64,000 bases of DNA from Pseudooceanicola pacificus (GTDB lineage Bacteria > Pseudomonadota > Alphaproteobacteria > Rhodobacterales > Rhodobacteraceae). The stretch is from contig NZ_WNXQ01000007.1 of the NCBI RefSeq assembly GCF_009789075.1, forward strand, positions 124,001-188,000. The letters run 5' to 3'. A model generated the notes under the pieces. That model did not search any database. It had not been told where the DNA came from and was given only the letters and a program-made list of their open reading frames with translations. This document shows, piece after piece, positions 10,226 to 39,588 of this stretch (the first letter of the stretch is position 1; each line of letters opens with the position of its first letter). The translations under genes and the position numbers were made by a program.

Positions 10226-10711
10226 ATGGACGGAGCCGAGGCGCCACAGCGCATGATGAGCGATTACATGGAGATCAAGCCGGAGTGGATCGACCACAAC
10301 GGCCATCTCAACATGGCCTATTACGGCGTGCTGTTCGACCACGGCAGCTCTTTCGCCTTCCGCCGCATGGGGTTCGGCCCCGCCTATCGCAGGGAATCGG
10401 GGCATACGACCTTCGAGGCCGAATACCGCATCCGCTACCGGCGCGAGCTGAAGCTGGGCGACCGGGTGCGCGCCTCGTTCCACCTGCTGGATGCGGGCAG
10501 CCGGGCGATCCACTATTGCCAGGAACTGTTTCACGAAGATGGCTGGGTCGCCGCCACCGGCGAGGGCGTCAACCTGCATATCGACCGCTCCGGCCCCCGG
10601 GTTGCGCCCTACCCGCCGCAGATCGTCGAGAAGATCGCCGCCCTGCTTGAGGACTGCCGCAGCATGCCTGTGCCCGACTGGGTCGGCGCCCCGATGGGGA
10701 TCCGCAAGTGA
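10226..10711 (+). CDS. Hotdog-fold acyl-CoA thioesterase, copy 1
   Basis: A 161-residue single hotdog domain of the 4-hydroxybenzoyl-CoA thioesterase/YbgC type, expected to hydrolyse an acyl-CoA in the cytosol. The core motif EWIDHNGHLNMAYYGVLFDH contains the usual catalytic Asp/His region. The start at 10226 is chosen because GGGAGGCAAGG precedes it; an upstream in-frame start at 10163 has no such signal. The stop overlaps the GTG start of a very similar second gene, so the pair looks like a tandem duplication in one operon. The substrate is unknown. Confidence 0.85.
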   Translation: MDGAEAPQRMMSDYMEIKPEWIDHNGHLNMAYYGVLFDHGSSFAFRRMGFGPAYRRESGHTTFEAEYRIRYRRELKLGDRVRASFHLLDAGSRAIHYCQELFHEDGWVAATGEGVNLHIDRSGPRVAPYPPQIVEKIAALLEDCRSMPVPDWVGAPMGIRK

Positions 10712-11175
10712 GCGTCTTCATCTCGTCCCTGATGTCGTTGAAGCCGGAATGGATCGACTTCAACGGCCATCTCAACATGGCCTATTACAACGTGCTTTTC
10801 GACCTCGGCTGCGACGAGGCCTGGGAGCAGTTCGGCTTTGGCCCCGCCTATCGCGAGCGCACCGGGCATACGACCTTTGCCGCCGAACACCGCACCCGCT
10901 ACGTGCGCGAACTGGCGCCGGAGTCCCGGGTGCGGGTGTCCTTCCACATGCTGGACGTGGGGCCCAAGGCCTTCCACTACTGCCAGGAGCTGCGGCACGA
11001 GGATGGCTGGCTTCCGGCCACCGGCGAGGGCGTCTCGCTGCATGTCGACCAGTCCGGGCCGCGGGTGGCGCCCTATCCGCCCGAGATCCTGGAGCGGCTG
11101 AACGCGATGCTCAAGCAGCATGCCGGCGAGCCGGTGCCGGAATGGGTCGGCTCGCGGATGGGCATCCGCAAGTAG
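10708..11175 (+). CDS. Hotdog-fold acyl-CoA thioesterase, copy 2 (GTG start)
   Basis: A 155-residue paralogue of the preceding gene, sharing almost the same core (EWIDFNGHLNMAYYNVLFD), FHYCQEL, ATGEGVSLHVDQSGPRVAPYP and the identical ending MGIRK. It begins at a GTG overlapping the preceding stop by four bases. An internal ATG at 10732 is possible. The aligned His/Asn change just before GHLNMAYY (DHNGH against DFNGH) lies at the active-site loop and may separate their substrates, which is inference. No other gene is in the unit. Confidence 0.84.
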   Translation: MSVFISSLMSLKPEWIDFNGHLNMAYYNVLFDLGCDEAWEQFGFGPAYRERTGHTTFAAEHRTRYVRELAPESRVRVSFHMLDVGPKAFHYCQELRHEDGWLPATGEGVSLHVDQSGPRVAPYPPEILERLNAMLKQHAGEPVPEWVGSRMGIRK

Positions 11176-11370
11176 CGCGCGCCCCGGGGCATGGCGGTGC
11201 ATCGCCCGCCTGCCCCGGCGCAGCGAGCGGGCGATATGCGTGAGGGCGGTGCCGGGCTGACTGCGGCCCGGTTGGCTGTGCGGCGCCGGTTCGCCCCGCG
11301 TCTCTGCCCCGGGGAACGGATCCGGCGCCGGGGCGGGCTTCCACCCGGCACGCGCGGCCGCCGCCCGGGG

Positions 11371-18888: not shown

Positions 18889-19209
18889 TCACTTTATAAG
18901 GTAATCGTCCAGCGATTTGCCTTCGTCGAGCAGTTGTTTGACCCAGCCGGGCTGACGGCCACGGCCGCTCCAGGTCTGTGTCGGGTCTGCGGGATCACGG
19001 TATTTCGGCGGATTGACCTTGCGGCTCTTCGAGGACTGGCCCGTCAGTTCCGAAAGGGAGAACCCCATTTCAAGAGCTTTCTGCTCAACCGCGGCCAGAG
19101 CCTTTTTCCGTTCCCGATCCTGGTAGGTCTTGATAGCCACATCGACATCCTTGCGCAGTTTCCGCAGCTCATCGAGAGACTTGCTTTCCAGATCGATACT
19201 CATGCTCAT
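18889..19209 (-). CDS. H-NS family nucleoid protein (HvrA-like)
   Basis: A 106-residue DNA-binding protein. The N-terminal two thirds is a charged coiled-coil-like oligomerisation region, and the C-terminal DNA-binding domain carries the hallmark TWSGRGRQPGWV followed by LDDYLIK. The family binds curved AT-rich DNA and silences or tunes genes; in Rhodobacter capsulatus HvrA modulates photosynthesis and nitrogen genes. The start at 19209 follows GGAAAG; a second ATG two codons later is possible. The gene and its 375-base upstream region are clearly richer in AT than the surroundings. Confidence 0.93.
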   Translation of the reverse strand: MSMSIDLESKSLDELRKLRKDVDVAIKTYQDRERKKALAAVEQKALEMGFSLSELTGQSSKSRKVNPPKYRDPADPTQTWSGRGRQPGWVKQLLDEGKSLDDYLIK

Positions 19210-19290
19210 TCTTTCCAGTTTTACAAATAACACGATCGCCATACATCAATGGCGACCAATATCCGGAGTTGATTTCCAGATATATGATGG

Positions 19291-22058: not shown

Positions 22059-23078
22059 ATGACTCAGCCGCTTGCCCCTTTGCCGGACCGTCCGTTGAAT
22101 GTCTGCGTTGTCGGGCCGGGGGCCATAGGCGGTGTGATCGCGGCCCGCCTGGCCCTGGCGGAAAAGGGCGGCGCCCTGGGGGCTGTCTCGGTGGTGGCGC
22201 GTGGCTCTCATCTCAAGGCGATCCGCACCTATGGCCTGCGCATCACCACGCCCGATCAGCCCGATCCGCTTGCCCTGCCCGTCACCGCTGTCGAGAACCC
22301 GGCAGAGCTGCCGCCGCAGGACCTTGTCATCACCGCGCTGAAGGGGCACCAGATCCCGGCGATGGCCGCGCGCCTGTCGCGTCTGCTGGCCCCGCACGGG
22401 CGCATCATGCCCGTGGTGAACGGCGTGCCCTGGTGGTACCCGCTGCCCGACGGCCAGGGCGGGTTTCACGGCGCCGAAGAGGTCGATCCCGGCGGTGTGC
22501 TCTGGCGCGACATCGGCCCCGAACGGGCGATTGGCGCCATCGCCTATTTCGGCGCCTCGGTGCCCGAGCCGGGGCTGGTTGCGCTCGAGATCGAGGGCTA
22601 TCTGGATATCGGCCGCCTGCCGGGCGAGGACCGGGCGGATGTCGACCGGGTGGCAGAGCTGCTGCGCGGGGCGGGCTGGATGATCCGCACGACCGAGCCT
22701 TACCAGAATTCGCTCTGGACCAAGCTGTTCAGCAACTGCGCCTTCAATTCGGTTGCGGCGGTCACCCGCGTGGCCTCGGCGCGCGCCATGCAGGATCCGG
22801 TGCTGCGCGCGCTGGCCGGCGACATCATGGAAGAGGTCCGCGCCATCGCCGCCGCCGAGGGGGCCGAGATCCGCATGACCACCGAAAAGCGCCTGGACCT
22901 GGCCGAGCGCAATGCCAGCTTCAAACCCTCGACCCTGCAGGATCTGGAAAAGGGCCGCCACATGGAGCTGGAGCCGATCTTTGGCGCCACCATCGCCGTG
23001 GCCAAGGCGCGCGGCATCCCCTGCCCCAAGCTGGAACTGATGACAGCGATCCTGCGCGCGGTGCAAGAGACGCTCTGA
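22059..23078 (+). CDS. panE: 2-dehydropantoate 2-reductase (ketopantoate reductase) family protein
   Basis: A 339-residue NADPH-dependent reductase expected to convert ketopantoate to pantoate for coenzyme A synthesis. The nucleotide-binding loop is CVVGPGAIGGVIAARLA near residue 20; the catalytic lysine region is TEPYQNSLWTKLFSNCAFN, and the C-terminal helical domain carries the conserved Glu in a KGRHMELEPIFG segment. ATG 22059 is preceded by GAGG. It stands alone, divergent from trpE(G). Many family members outside pan operons act on other 2-oxo acids, so the specific substrate is less sure than the fold. Confidence 0.85.
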   Translation: MTQPLAPLPDRPLNVCVVGPGAIGGVIAARLALAEKGGALGAVSVVARGSHLKAIRTYGLRITTPDQPDPLALPVTAVENPAELPPQDLVITALKGHQIPAMAARLSRLLAPHGRIMPVVNGVPWWYPLPDGQGGFHGAEEVDPGGVLWRDIGPERAIGAIAYFGASVPEPGLVALEIEGYLDIGRLPGEDRADVDRVAELLRGAGWMIRTTEPYQNSLWTKLFSNCAFNSVAAVTRVASARAMQDPVLRALAGDIMEEVRAIAAAEGAEIRMTTEKRLDLAERNASFKPSTLQDLEKGRHMELEPIFGATIAVAKARGIPCPKLELMTAILRAVQETL

Positions 23079-23100
23079 CCCGCCGCATCCGGACTATTGG

Positions 23101-23262
23101 GTCCGGCCGCCGGGACGGGTCCGGCTGTAGGTCCGGGTCCGGGTCCGGCTGACAGTACGGGTACGGTTACGGGTACGGTTACGGGTACGGGTACGGGTAC
23201 GGGTACGGGTACGGGTACGGGTACGGGTACGGGTACGGGTACGGGTACGGGTACGGGTACGG
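23101..23262. repeat. Hexanucleotide tandem repeat array (GTACGG/GTCCGG)
   Basis: From 23155 to 23262 there are 18 uninterrupted hexamers: 16 GTACGG and 2 TTACGG. The same six-base register extends left to 23101 as GTCCGG copies with degenerate units. It begins 22 bases after the panE stop, between convergent genes, and has no spacers, so it is not CRISPR. Reading frames through it give Gly-Thr, Arg-Thr or Pro-Val dipeptide runs without start signals. Such arrays arise and change length by replication slippage. Confidence 0.95.
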
Positions 23263-23310
23263 GGAGGCCGTGCCCTGAGCCGCCCTGTCCGGTCAACCAC
23301 CAGATCAGGA

Positions 23311-23530
23311 TTTGCAAAGACCGCTTTGCAAACGCCCCTGTGCAGAACGCGTTTTGCAAAGAGTGATTTGCATCATGCGGTTTGCAAAAAGGGACCGGAC
23401 ACCGGACACGCCATCCGGCGCAAGCCTCCCGGACCCCGGGTCACAGCTGTGCCAGACCCCGGTTCAGGGAACCTGAGCACAGCACAGCCCCGGAAGCGCC
23501 TTTACAAAACGCGGCCCGAGACTTTGCAAA
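23311..23530. repeat. 14-bp iteron-like array with a TTTGCAAA palindrome core
   Basis: Six consecutive 14-base units (23311, 23325, 23339, 23353, 23367, 23381) each begin with TTTGCAAA or a close variant (TGTGCAGA at 23339, TTTGCATC at 23367). Two more occurrences follow at 23501 (TTTACAAA) and 23523. The unit length is not a multiple of three, so coding is unlikely. The array lies between the 3' ends of convergent genes. The palindromic core and fixed phase resemble a multi-copy protein-binding site, but none is known to me with this sequence. Confidence 0.85.
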
Positions 23531-23544
23531 CACCTCGCACCAGC

Positions 23545-24126
23545 TCAGCGCAGCCCGTCCATCGCCTTGATATCGGACACCGCCAGCCCGCCAACCCGGT
23601 CGTGGATGCGCGGGCCACAGGACATGGCAAGAGCCAGCAGCAGCTCGTCATCGCGCGGGCCGTCGGGCAACCCGACCTCCATCGCGTCGAAATGCGAGCG
23701 CACATAGGCCGCGTTGATATGGCCAAGCGGCACGTCGATCCGGCTGCCCGGCCCGCCCTGTTTCATCGCCGAGGGCACGATGGCCAGCGCCTCGCCCAGC
23801 CGTTCGCGCATCGCATAGCCGCCCGGCACGTGCCAGAGGGCCGTATGCTCCAGCTCTCCGCGCGTGCCGCACATGGCGGCCTTGCCGTAACCGTCGATGC
23901 CCTCGCGCCCGCCCATGACCTCGATCAGGCGGTCGGTCATCATCAGGCCGAGCGGCTTCAGCGCCTCCATCCCCGGCTGGATATCGGCGGTGTAGCTGCC
24001 CGCATAGGGGTTGCGCACCAGGGCGACAATGGCCCCGCGCCGGCGCGGTACGGTGGCCACCGGTCCGCCGTCATGGGCGATGTCCTCTAGAAAAATCATC
24101 GTCTTGCGCAGGGTGAATTCAGTCAT
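23545..24126 (-). CDS. Amino acid synthesis family protein (AA_synth, PF06684-like)
   Basis: A 193-residue soluble protein matching the family named amino acid synthesis, whose real reaction is unclear. Features are LEDIAHDGGP, a conserved VRNPYAGSYTADIQPGM, YGKAAMCGTRGELEHTALWH and SRIDVPLGHINAAYVRSHFD. The start at 24126 lies within ATGACTGA, overlapping the previous stop by eight bases. It is last in the molybdenum-hydroxylase operon. Constant association with UPF0280 and catabolic genes suggests a hydrolase or isomerase step in N-compound breakdown, which is inference. Confidence 0.85.
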   Translation of the reverse strand: MTEFTLRKTMIFLEDIAHDGGPVATVPRRRGAIVALVRNPYAGSYTADIQPGMEALKPLGLMMTDRLIEVMGGREGIDGYGKAAMCGTRGELEHTALWHVPGGYAMRERLGEALAIVPSAMKQGGPGSRIDVPLGHINAAYVRSHFDAMEVGLPDGPRDDELLLALAMSCGPRIHDRVGGLAVSDIKAMDGLR

Positions 24127-24949
24127 GTCCAGCATCCGTTACCAGTTTTCCAATTCCGCCGACCAGCCGGAACCGCCCCTGCAGCTCCAGCCGTGCCCCG
24201 CCGATCAGCCCGCGTGAAACCAGCCCCTCGGCATAGGTCGCGCCACGGGCCAGGGCCTCTTCGATCTCGGCCTCGCTCAGCGCGCCGACCCCGGTGGTGA
24301 CGGGCCGGTCGCCCAGGTCGCTGTCGGGCGAGAGCTGACTGGCCGGGACGCGGGTCACGGCCGGGTGGCCCGGCAGGTCGATCCGGTTCGCGATCATCGT
24401 GGCCGCCGCATCCGCCAGGGCCGCCGAACGCGCAACCGCGGTCACCGCATCGGCCATGCCCAGCGAATGCGACCGCCCGCCCCAGCCCGAGGTCGCCATG
24501 CCGCGCCAGGGGGTCTGCGCGTCGATCCGGATGGTGCCGCCGGGCATTGCGGCCCTGATCTCTTGCCTTGGCGTGAGGTGAAAGGCCACGTCGCCGCCGT
24601 TGTTCACCCAGGCCAGGGTCACCTCGCGGAAATGGGACATGCTGGCGAGGATCTCGTCGGCCACGGCCCCGGCGACGGCGGCCATCGGGGTGATGAACTC
24701 GGGCTTGAAATGCACCGTGGCGCTGCGCATCCGGCGGGCGACATGGCCCAGCAGGGGCGGCGAATCTGCCCGGCGCAGCGCGGGCAGTTCAGAGACCAGT
24801 TCCTGCAGCAGCCCCTCGAACCGGGCGGCGGCGGCGGCCATCGCCTGGGCCCGGGCCGCGCCTTCGGCCTTGACGATCAGGTCGATCGGGCCTTCGTGCA
24901 GATGCATCCGCTCGCCATCCGGCAACATGCGGATCTGGGGGCCGGTCAT
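24119..24949 (-). CDS. UPF0280 family protein
   Basis: A 276-residue soluble protein of the UPF0280 family, whose function is not established; the fold is related to ApbE-like flavin transferases. Diagnostic stretches are LHEGPIDLIVKAEG near residue 20, EFITPMAAVAGAVADEIL, the NNGGDVAFHL motif and TSGWGGRSHSLGMADAVTAV. Start and stop overlap its neighbours (ATGA with the upstream gene), so it is translated with the reductase-like gene before it. An ApbE-like role in flavin attachment to a partner in this operon is possible but unproven. Confidence 0.88.
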   Translation of the reverse strand: MTGPQIRMLPDGERMHLHEGPIDLIVKAEGAARAQAMAAAAARFEGLLQELVSELPALRRADSPPLLGHVARRMRSATVHFKPEFITPMAAVAGAVADEILASMSHFREVTLAWVNNGGDVAFHLTPRQEIRAAMPGGTIRIDAQTPWRGMATSGWGGRSHSLGMADAVTAVARSAALADAAATMIANRIDLPGHPAVTRVPASQLSPDSDLGDRPVTTGVGALSEAEIEEALARGATYAEGLVSRGLIGGARLELQGRFRLVGGIGKLVTDAGHD

Positions 24950-37524: not shown

Positions 37525-37539
37525 GATTTGGAGGCTGGC

Positions 37540-39588
37540 ATGGCGGAACAGGTGATCGGCGTCGACGTCGGGGGGACGTTCACCGACCTCGTGCTGGTCG
37601 ATCCCTCCAGCGGGGCGGTACGGCTGGCCAAGGTGCCCTCGACGCTGGACAACCAGGCGGGCGGGGTCATGGCCGCAACGCGGGAGGCCGGGGCCGACCT
37701 GGGCGCGGTGGCGCTGGTGGTGCATGGCACGACCACCACGACCAACGCCGTGCTGGAGCGCAAGCTGGCGCGGACCGGCCTGATCACCACCGCAGGCTTC
37801 CGCGACGTGCTGGAGCTGGGGCGGCGCACCCGGCCGCAGGCCTACGGCATGAAGGGAGAGTTCCGCCCCGTGATCCCGCGCGACCTGCGCCGCGAGGTGC
37901 CAGAGCGGATGGATGCCCAGGGCCGCGTGGTCACCGCGCTGGACGAGGATGCGCTGAAACGCGAGGCGCGGGCCCTGCTGGAGGCGGGATGCGTCTCGGT
38001 TGTGGTGCATTTCCTGCATGCCTATGCCAACCCGGCGCATGAGCTGAGGGCGGGCGAGATCCTGGCCGAGGTCTGGCCGAACGATCATGTCACCCTGGGC
38101 CACGCCCTGCTGTCGGAAAGCCGCGAGTTCGAGCGCGGGGTGACGGCGGCGGTCAATGCCTCGGTCCAGCCGCTGCTGGAGCGCTATGTCTCGCGCCTGG
38201 CCGGGGAGCTGGCCGCGGGCGGGTATCGTGGCGAGCTGCTGGTGATGAACGGCAATGGCGGTATGGTCTCGGCCGGCAAGGTGGCGCGCGAGGCGGCCAA
38301 GACGGTGATGTCGGGCCCGGCCTCGGGGGTCATGGCGGCGGCCTTCACCGGGCGGGCGGCGGGCATGCCGGATCTGCTGACCTATGACATGGGCGGCACC
38401 TCGACCGACGTGGCGCTGATCCGCGGGGCGGAGCCTGCGGTGTCGAACGAGATCGAGATCGAATATGCCATGCCGATCCATGTGCCGATGGTCGACGTGC
38501 GCACCGTGGGCGCCGGTGGCGGGTCGATCGCGCGGGTCAATGCGGCGGGGCTGCTGGAGGTCGGGCCGCACAGCGCGGGGGCCGTGCCGGGGCCGATCTG
38601 CTATGGCCGCGGCGGGACCGAGCCGACGATTTCCGACGCCAATCTCCTGTTGGGCCGGCTGGACCCGTCGCGGCTGAAATCGGTCGAAGGCGGCGTGACC
38701 CTGGAGCGGGTGCGTCAGATTTTCGACGAAAATCTGGGCGCGCCACTGGGCCTGACGCCCGAGGAGGCGGCCGAGGCCGTGGTGCGCATGGCCAATGTCA
38801 GGATGGCCGGGGCGATCCGCATGGTCTCGGTCTCGCTGGGCGCCGATCCGCGCGATTTCGCGCTCTTCGCCTTTGGTGGCGCGGGGCCCTTGCATGCCTG
38901 CGCCCTGGCCCGCGAGCTGGGCGTGCCGCGCGTTCTGGTCCCCGCCCGCCCCGGCATCACCAATGCGCTCGGCTGCGTGGTGGCCGACCTGCGGCACGAT
39001 TTCGTCACCACGCTGAACCGTCCGCTCGACAGGTTGCACATGGAGGACCTCGCCGCCGTGCTGCAGGCGCAGGAGGCCGAGGGCCGCGCCCTGATCGCCC
39101 GCGAGACCGTACCCCTGCGCGAGGTCCGCCGGGTCCTGTCGCTCGACATGCAGTTCATCGGCCAGACGCATCTGCTGCGGGTGGCGCTCGACGGGCCCGG
39201 GATCACCCGCGAGGCCCTGCAGGCGAAGTTCGAGGAGGTCTACTGGAACCGCTTCCGCGTGCGTCTCGACACGATCCGCGCCTCGGTGGTCAACGCCAAT
39301 TGCTCGGTCATCGGGGTGCGCGAACCGCTGGACCTGTCGGTGCTGATCGACCCCGCCGGACGGCGCGCGACCGTGGCAGAGGCCCTGCGCACCCGGCGCG
39401 ACGTGATCTTTGACGGCGCCGCGCATGACACGCCGGTCTACCTGCGCGATGCCCTGCCGCTGGAGGCCGAGATCACCGGGCCGGCGGTGATCGAGCAGAT
39501 GGATACCACGATCCTGATCCCGCCGGGCGATGTCGCGCGGGGGGACAGGCTGGGCAATATCATCGTGCATGTCGGGGCGGCGGGGTGA
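37540..39588 (+). CDS. hyuA: Hydantoinase/oxoprolinase family subunit A
   Basis: HyuA-type ATP-dependent amidohydrolase subunit, 682 residues, usual for the family. The phosphate-binding IGVDVGGTFTDLVLVD is near residue 6, followed by VVHGTTTTTNAVLERK, LLTYDMGGTSTDVALIRG in the ATPase core and DVRTVGAGGGSIARVNAAGL. With HyuB it hydrolyses cyclic amides such as 5-oxoproline, N-methylhydantoin or related lactams at the cost of ATP (some relatives carboxylate ketones instead). ATG follows GGAGG. Its position beside a ring-hydroxylating and ring-reducing operon fits lactam opening. Confidence 0.93.
   Translation: MAEQVIGVDVGGTFTDLVLVDPSSGAVRLAKVPSTLDNQAGGVMAATREAGADLGAVALVVHGTTTTTNAVLERKLARTGLITTAGFRDVLELGRRTRPQAYGMKGEFRPVIPRDLRREVPERMDAQGRVVTALDEDALKREARALLEAGCVSVVVHFLHAYANPAHELRAGEILAEVWPNDHVTLGHALLSESREFERGVTAAVNASVQPLLERYVSRLAGELAAGGYRGELLVMNGNGGMVSAGKVAREAAKTVMSGPASGVMAAAFTGRAAGMPDLLTYDMGGTSTDVALIRGAEPAVSNEIEIEYAMPIHVPMVDVRTVGAGGGSIARVNAAGLLEVGPHSAGAVPGPICYGRGGTEPTISDANLLLGRLDPSRLKSVEGGVTLERVRQIFDENLGAPLGLTPEEAAEAVVRMANVRMAGAIRMVSVSLGADPRDFALFAFGGAGPLHACALARELGVPRVLVPARPGITNALGCVVADLRHDFVTTLNRPLDRLHMEDLAAVLQAQEAEGRALIARETVPLREVRRVLSLDMQFIGQTHLLRVALDGPGITREALQAKFEEVYWNRFRVRLDTIRASVVNANCSVIGVREPLDLSVLIDPAGRRATVAEALRTRRDVIFDGAAHDTPVYLRDALPLEAEITGPAVIEQMDTTILIPPGDVARGDRLGNIIVHVGAAG

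Follow-up and report, generated by a model that had tools for sequence, protein, structure and literature searches.

What could a run of short palindromes, repeated every 14 bp, be doing between the ends of two convergent genes? The window analyzed here, a 64,000-nucleotide stretch of Pseudooceanicola pacificus DNA that is part of contig G000:C20, carries such a run. Its core, the octamer TTTGCAAA, occurs exactly at 23311, 23325, 23353, 23381 and 23523 of the window sequence, and two-mismatch copies at 23339 and 23367 (the units TGTGCAGA and TTTGCATC) complete the 14-bp register. The array, which spans 23311 to 23388 and is assigned to neither strand, thereby consists of six units, four of them exact, in steps of exactly 14 bp (23311, 23325, 23339, 23353, 23367, 23381). 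The cores are kept, while all six spacers are unlike one another. Further along, a TTTACAAA core at 23501 and the TTTGCAAA at 23523 make up a paired site, TTTACAAA-N14-TTTGCAAA (23501 to 23530, likewise unstranded), with a spacing of 22 bp and one mismatch relative to the canonical pair described below. When the 281-bp region was shuffled at constant composition 5000 times, allowing each site up to two mismatches, the longest chain in 14-bp steps was two sites, against six observed. In 20000 shuffles, one exact octamer appeared in 22 and more than one in none, against five observed. The array is therefore a genuine feature, and the original prediction of six units with an exact 14-bp period and of two further cores at 23501 and 23523 is borne out; it had not remarked on the 22-bp spacing of the latter.

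The placement between gene ends was also described correctly. A 2-dehydropantoate 2-reductase-like (ApbA/PanE) gene on the + strand (22134 to 23078; the start is that of our own gene-calling script, and the ORF list gives 22026) forms the left flank of the convergent gap and ends at 23078. On the right, a PF06684 "amino acid synthesis" gene on the - strand (23545 to 24135), which served as the anchor of our syntenic comparison, ends at 23545, so that the paired site at 23501/23523 adjoins its 3′ end. A search limited to the sigma-70 consensus gave no promoter-like match on either strand of 23050-23600, a terminator scan of the same interval gave no match, and neither did an Rfam search of 22900-23700. 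The gap also holds a run of about 22 copies of the hexamer GGTACG (23130-23263), some 50 bp from the array. Further away, a segment of about 464 bp is tandemly repeated at 10277-11177 with 75% matches, and a gene for an H-NS-type protein (PF00816) lies at 18889-19242, about 4 kb from the array.

Across the genome of this organism (G000), whose assembly is 66.85% complete, TTTGCAAA is found in 36 places, compared with 11 for the reversed octamer, and is clustered at several loci. The 14-bp register recurs in another TTTGCAAA array (L019; G000:C18, 4094-4196), which also occupies a convergent gap and is flanked by genes for a PfkB-type kinase and an enoyl-CoA hydratase. The translated frames beyond this second array appear repetitive, and its enoyl-CoA hydratase had no match at E 1e-60 in the G002 or G021 chromosomes. 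Two other loci do not look like promoters: at L020, 24-bp TTTGCAAA pairs lie past a biotin-carboxylase-like gene, and L017 has a one-mismatch 22-bp pair as well as a 24-bp pair, of which the 24-bp pair lies inside a gene (deoB by eye). An exact 14-bp pair was found in none of the 21 other genomes of the genus, and the 14-bp repetition has so far been seen in G000 alone.

Dispersed paired sites are built around this octamer, mostly in the form TTTGCAAA-N14-TTTGCAAA, with the two octamers 22 bp apart. Pairs of the form TTTGCAAA-N{1,30}-TTTGCAAA were present in 18 of the 22 genus genomes (G000 included), and the reversed control was absent from all 22. Exact N14 pairs occurred in 13 of the 22 and were missing from G000 and eight others (G001, G006, G008, G013, G014, G016, G017 and G020); at 64% GC, about 5e-5 such pairs are expected by chance per 4.3 Mb. 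Among 199 genomes sampled from the family, of which 197 belong to other genera, 11, all other-genus, carried one to three exact pairs, and the reversed control matched in one of the 199. As exact N14 pairs are absent from eight other genus genomes and from 186 of the 197 other-genus genomes, the system is not universal. On a tree of ScfR, a short-chain acyl-CoA regulator considered below, the pairs occur on deep branches and are absent at several tips, which suggests, with some branches weakly supported, that they are ancestral and have been lost repeatedly.

To describe the context of these sites, pair flanks were fetched from the genus genomes and genes were called with our own script (the G015 gap pair was taken from stretch L038 and not from a separate flank). 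The 22-bp spacing is dominant, with 32 non-coding and 23 coding instances, and orthologous sites vary among 21, 22 and 24 bp (L104 versus L155 and L172; L105 and L173 versus L156). A 17-bp-spaced TTTGCAAA pair conserved in three genomes (L091, L116, L142), between a gene of 134-140 aa and a BioY-like gene (by eye), represents a further spacing class. With G000 included, 106 octamer clusters fell in tandem gaps (42), genes (36), convergent gaps (14), divergent gaps (10) and at stretch edges (4). Orthologous sites of several genomes were counted separately, so these and the following context counts are not independent events, and since ScfR operators share this octamer as their core, some of the counted clusters, mostly those of other spacings, are probably promoter sites. 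The 74 clusters of the 20-24 bp spacing class were coding (30), tandem (28), convergent (12), divergent (1) or at an edge (3), and the 32 clusters of other spacings were tandem (14), divergent (9), coding (6), convergent (2) or at an edge (1). Among non-coding, non-edge clusters, divergent gaps accounted for 1 of 41 in the 20-24 bp class versus 9 of 25 in the others (Fisher P 4e-4). The only two convergent clusters outside the 20-24 bp class are the two 14-bp arrays of G000. Within the same class, 13 of the 28 tandem-gap clusters lie no more than 25 bp from a stop codon and 4 no more than 25 bp from a start; for 3 of those near a stop codon, the next start falls inside the 25-bp limit too. The original prediction had held that the array is not a typical promoter operator of the flanking genes, and this fits best with a site family that largely avoids divergent gaps.

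Pairs inside genes are under selection at the DNA level. In 22 of the 36 in-gene clusters the site reads ..T TTG CAA A..... TTT GCA AA., and it does so in unrelated proteins. The hosts, named by eye, include a hydantoinase-like protein in seven genomes, RsmH, GlnE and a sulfatase in three each, and an indolepyruvate oxidoreductase in two; the GlnE sites are of a different frame type. The in-gene sites are built from the rare codons TTT (17% of Phe), TTG (3.5% of Leu), GCA (5% of Ala) and CAA (10% of Gln). The window contains a region matching the 683-690-aa hydantoinase-like protein (37528 to 39582, + strand), from which the in-gene TTTGCAAA-N14-TTTGCAAA of the seven congeners is absent; there, TLERVRQIFDEN codes for TLQTVRDIFAK.

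The position of the N14 sites on the chromosome was determined in G002 (a 3.73-Mb contig) and G021 (4.37 Mb, complete), with parS as the origin marker and the terminus taken as the point opposite parS. With parS at 2.92 of 3.73 Mb in G002 and at 3.22 of 4.37 Mb in G021, the opposite points are at 1.056 Mb and 1.035 Mb, respectively. Allowing up to two mismatches, there are 12 N14 places in G002 and 16 in G021, compared with 0 for the reversed control. All 12 places in G002 lie within 0.245-1.515 Mb, and 15 of the 16 in G021 lie within 0.487-1.916 Mb, the other being a two-mismatch site near parS at 3.33 Mb. Under the assumption that sites are independent, the mean distance from the parS-opposite point is 0.36 Mb in G002 against 0.93 Mb for a uniform distribution (11 merged sites, P about 1.4e-4; P 0.0045 for the 8 sites with at most one mismatch), and 0.41 Mb in G021 against 1.09 Mb (14 merged sites, 0 of 200000 draws). 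GC skew, sampled in 20 stretches per chromosome, turns from positive to negative between the samples that begin at 0.933 and 1.120 Mb in G002 and at 0.873 and 1.092 Mb in G021, and its sign is as expected from parS in 20 of 20 and 17 of 20 samples, respectively. In these two chromosomes, N14 pairs are thus clustered at the replication terminus. Among the ten draft congeners that have both parS and an exact N14 pair, none carries such a pair on the parS contig, a raw count over contigs of any size.

Outside the genus, the same comparison was made in G130 and G173, the two of the 11 pair-bearing other-genus genomes that have three pairs on a long contig, and here the terminus was placed by GC skew alone. 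In G130 (a 1.34-Mb contig), the three pairs are at 480, 497 and 844 kb, and the sign of the skew changes between the 450 and 540 kb samples. In G173 (4.08 Mb), pairs lie at 1.22, 1.92 and 2.12 Mb and the skew, which is noisy (in 3 of 18 samples its sign is not the one that a single origin and terminus would give), turns between 2.07 and 2.30 Mb. Three of the six pairs are inside the skew-turn interval and the others are 0.2-0.4, 0.3-0.4 and 0.9-1.1 Mb off, so that these two other genera are in broad agreement with terminus clustering. The original prediction had raised clustering near ori, ter or plasmid rep genes. For the site family in G002 and G021 the answer is ter.

How does the window itself relate to this arc? 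As the G000 genome is 66.85% complete and neither an exact parS nor a full-score ihfA was found in it, the terminus position of its contigs comes from synteny. The coordinates of the PF06684 ortholog, 1.503 Mb in G002 and 1.867 Mb in G021, fall inside the site-bearing arcs of both, and by this comparison the window's contig would lie near its own terminus. The PF06684 protein was matched in 15 congeners, and in 11 of these the convergent PanE-like partner was within the fetched stretch. A 21-22 bp pair with at most two mismatches is present in 5 of these 11 gaps (G004, G009, G010, G015, G019), with two such pairs each in G015 and G019; in the other six, that of G002 included, there is no 20-24 bp pair within two mismatches. 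The window's own gap, which lacks an exact N14 pair as does the rest of G000, retains one pair of this kind with one mismatch, at 23501/23523. The sequence around the paired cores is not kept across the congener gaps. An array unique to one strain and decaying freely in close relatives had been named as the sign of neutral slippage. On this point the result is mixed. The exact 14-bp pair is indeed unique to G000 in the genus, but free neutral decay of the gap's sites is not the pattern seen, as the cores persist in 5 of 11 relatives and their surroundings do not.

Slippage is accordingly a very unlikely origin for the array. The gap is repeat-prone, as the 22-copy GGTACG run about 50 bp away attests, and the exact 14-bp pair is limited to G000 within the genus; however, cores are kept while spacers differ, the same 14-bp form recurs at the second G000 locus, and paired cores are retained at the orthologous gap of relatives. 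Somewhat less improbable, though still quite unlikely, is an RNA hairpin or bidirectional transcription terminator between the convergent genes. The + strand of 23300-23400 folds better than 200 of 200 shuffles (z -3.98), the - strand is surpassed by 1 of 200 (z -2.82), a core in L038 sits in the loop of a GC-rich hairpin, and nearly half of the tandem-gap clusters of the 20-24 bp class are close to a stop codon. A high fold score is nevertheless expected of palindrome copies, which must pair with each other, and the 23490-23548 and L038 stretches fold no better than shuffles. Moreover, the terminator scan and Rfam gave no match at the array, 30 of the 74 clusters of the 20-24 bp class are inside genes, and an RNA element leaves the terminus clustering unexplained. 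The original description of the array as iteron-like was not supported: none of the six annotated neighboring genes is a replication gene, and congeners retain the gene pair. A plasmid iteron or replication origin was rejected, with no initiator among the six neighbors and with spacers that differ; that the PF06684 ortholog is carried on a 4.37-Mb chromosome in G021 and on a 3.73-Mb contig in G002 also counts against it. In a plasmid search, the GGTACG stretch alone matched, to two Streptomyces plasmids among the plasmids searched.

A more substantial rival, although in our view an unlikely one, is that the short-chain acyl-CoA regulator ScfR/PccR uses the array as a group of operators, either at a nearby promoter or as a titrating decoy. 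Paired near-identical boxes are typical of ScfR-family sites in the available text of PMC10370305, and Mycobacterium tuberculosis PrpR recognizes TTTGCAAA plus a variant according to that of PMC6765138. G000 encodes ScfR (PF09856, 236.7 bits; PF06114 and HTH domains), whose own promoter contains two TTTGCAAA, and further copies lie before pccB-like and pyruvate-carboxylase-like (by eye) genes and beside a biotin-carboxylase-like gene. The stretch before scfR contains TTTGCAAA in 20 of 21 genomes, and autoregulation of scfR through this upstream octamer is probable. The octamer before scfR (L028, L182-L201) is also present in genomes without an exact N14 pair. The array shares the paired TTTGCAAA-like boxes of ScfR-family operators but does not lie upstream of a regulated promoter, and its convergent gap gave no match to the sigma-70 consensus on either strand. 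In addition, promoter-type sites are spaced otherwise (25 at pccB, 29 at scfR) and lie in divergent or tandem gaps, which the 20-24 bp class, at 1 of 41 against 9 of 25, does not share for divergent gaps, and there are genomes with an unchanged ScfR recognition helix that have no N14 sites. A titrating decoy would still be conceivable. ScfR as the sole explanation was favored early and was weakened once spacing and context split into two classes.

We therefore consider it reasonably probable that the array is part of a terminus-domain site cluster that is matS-like in behavior and has been elaborated in this species, and the octamer sites probably help organize the terminus end of the chromosome. 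The original prediction had proposed a nucleoid, partition, replication or silencing protein as the binder; a nucleoid- or partition-type protein agrees with sites that are terminus-clustered and largely avoid divergent gaps. In the canonical site, about two helical turns separate the two TTTGCAAA palindromes, and octamers are commonly spaced 20-24 bp apart. We hypothesize that a helix-turn-helix protein would occupy each octamer as one dimer and an octamer pair as a dimer of dimers. Such complexes, spread over about 1.3-1.4 Mb around the terminus, could bridge each other and perhaps also the division machinery, and the terminus would in this way be drawn together and positioned ahead of division, as by MatP-matS in enteric bacteria and by ZapT in Caulobacter. 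At the window locus, the near-canonical pair at 23501/23523 would have been kept and supplemented by a run of extra octamers in 14-bp steps. Although the 14-bp period differs from the canonical 22-bp spacing, the two forms may be functionally alike.

Protein binding to these sites is predicted, and the candidate binders are an ScfR-family regulator, which shares the octamer, or ZapT. ScfR is encoded in 21 of the 22 genus genomes, including genomes without N14 pairs, and a MerR-type gene beside ihfA, a likely ZapT ortholog, is found in every one of the 21 congeners that have a full-score ihfA. As both genes are present with or without the pairs, and their HTH regions are similar in either case, co-occurrence was abandoned as a route to the binder; a second, weaker PF09856 paralog was likewise considered and discriminates nothing. 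We regard it as doubtful that a CoA-ester-sensing tetrameric ScfR-family regulator, or its paralog, doubles as the terminus-organizing protein. In that case, sites of 25-37 bp at promoters would control propionyl-CoA genes, sites of 20-24 bp in the terminus would fold the chromosome end, and the 14-bp arrays would be a high-occupancy form belonging to this species.

The proposed terminus sites resemble, and depart from, several known systems. Like matS, they are short and palindromic, number about ten or more, and are restricted to a broad terminus arc (directly in G002 and G021 for the N14 family, through synteny only for the window array). matS sites themselves are kept irrespective of coding status, and so are these, with 30 of the 74 clusters of the 20-24 bp class in genes and in rare codons. 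Instead of the single 13-mer of matS, however, two TTTGCAAA octamers make up the site, with a usual spacing of 22 bp. To our knowledge, enteric bacteria and Vibrio are the only groups for which a sequence-defined terminus-domain site is known. The accessible portion of PMC7188993 describes matS as a 13-mer and the MatP domain as 800 kb, and reports MatP from Enterobacteriaceae and Vibrionaceae only. For ZapT of Caulobacter crescentus, excerpts of PMC7188993 and PMC7858052 give 10 ChIP positions, mostly in ORFs and strongly terminus-biased, and in the former no consensus motif was found. Our sites are similarly alphaproteobacterial, often in genes and terminus-biased, but they have a defined TTTGCAAA motif, and the likely ZapT ortholog occurs in genomes lacking exact pairs as well. 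With the ScfR/PccR/PrpR/RamB operators they share the octamer (TTTGCAAA in PrpR) and the two-box layout, the boxes of class 2 RamB having an 18-bp spacer in the available text of PMC6765138 and PMC10370305. The known operators described there are located upstream of the genes they regulate, whereas sites of the 20-24 bp class are largely missing from divergent gaps and the N14 sites among them are concentrated at the terminus. In the open-access literature, we found no paper with both TTTGCAAA and "replication terminus" and no description of this site family; TTTGCAAA and Rhodobacter occur together only in the PrpR paper (PMC6765138), and the available parts of PMC9836097 and PMC6315104 contain no such motif.

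That terminus sites and the operator of a metabolic regulator have a core in common came as a surprise. If one ScfR-family protein did serve both, acyl-CoA status would be tied to chromosome organization and division. A defined motif present about ten times per chromosome in these roseobacters makes terminus organization in the alphaproteobacteria directly testable.
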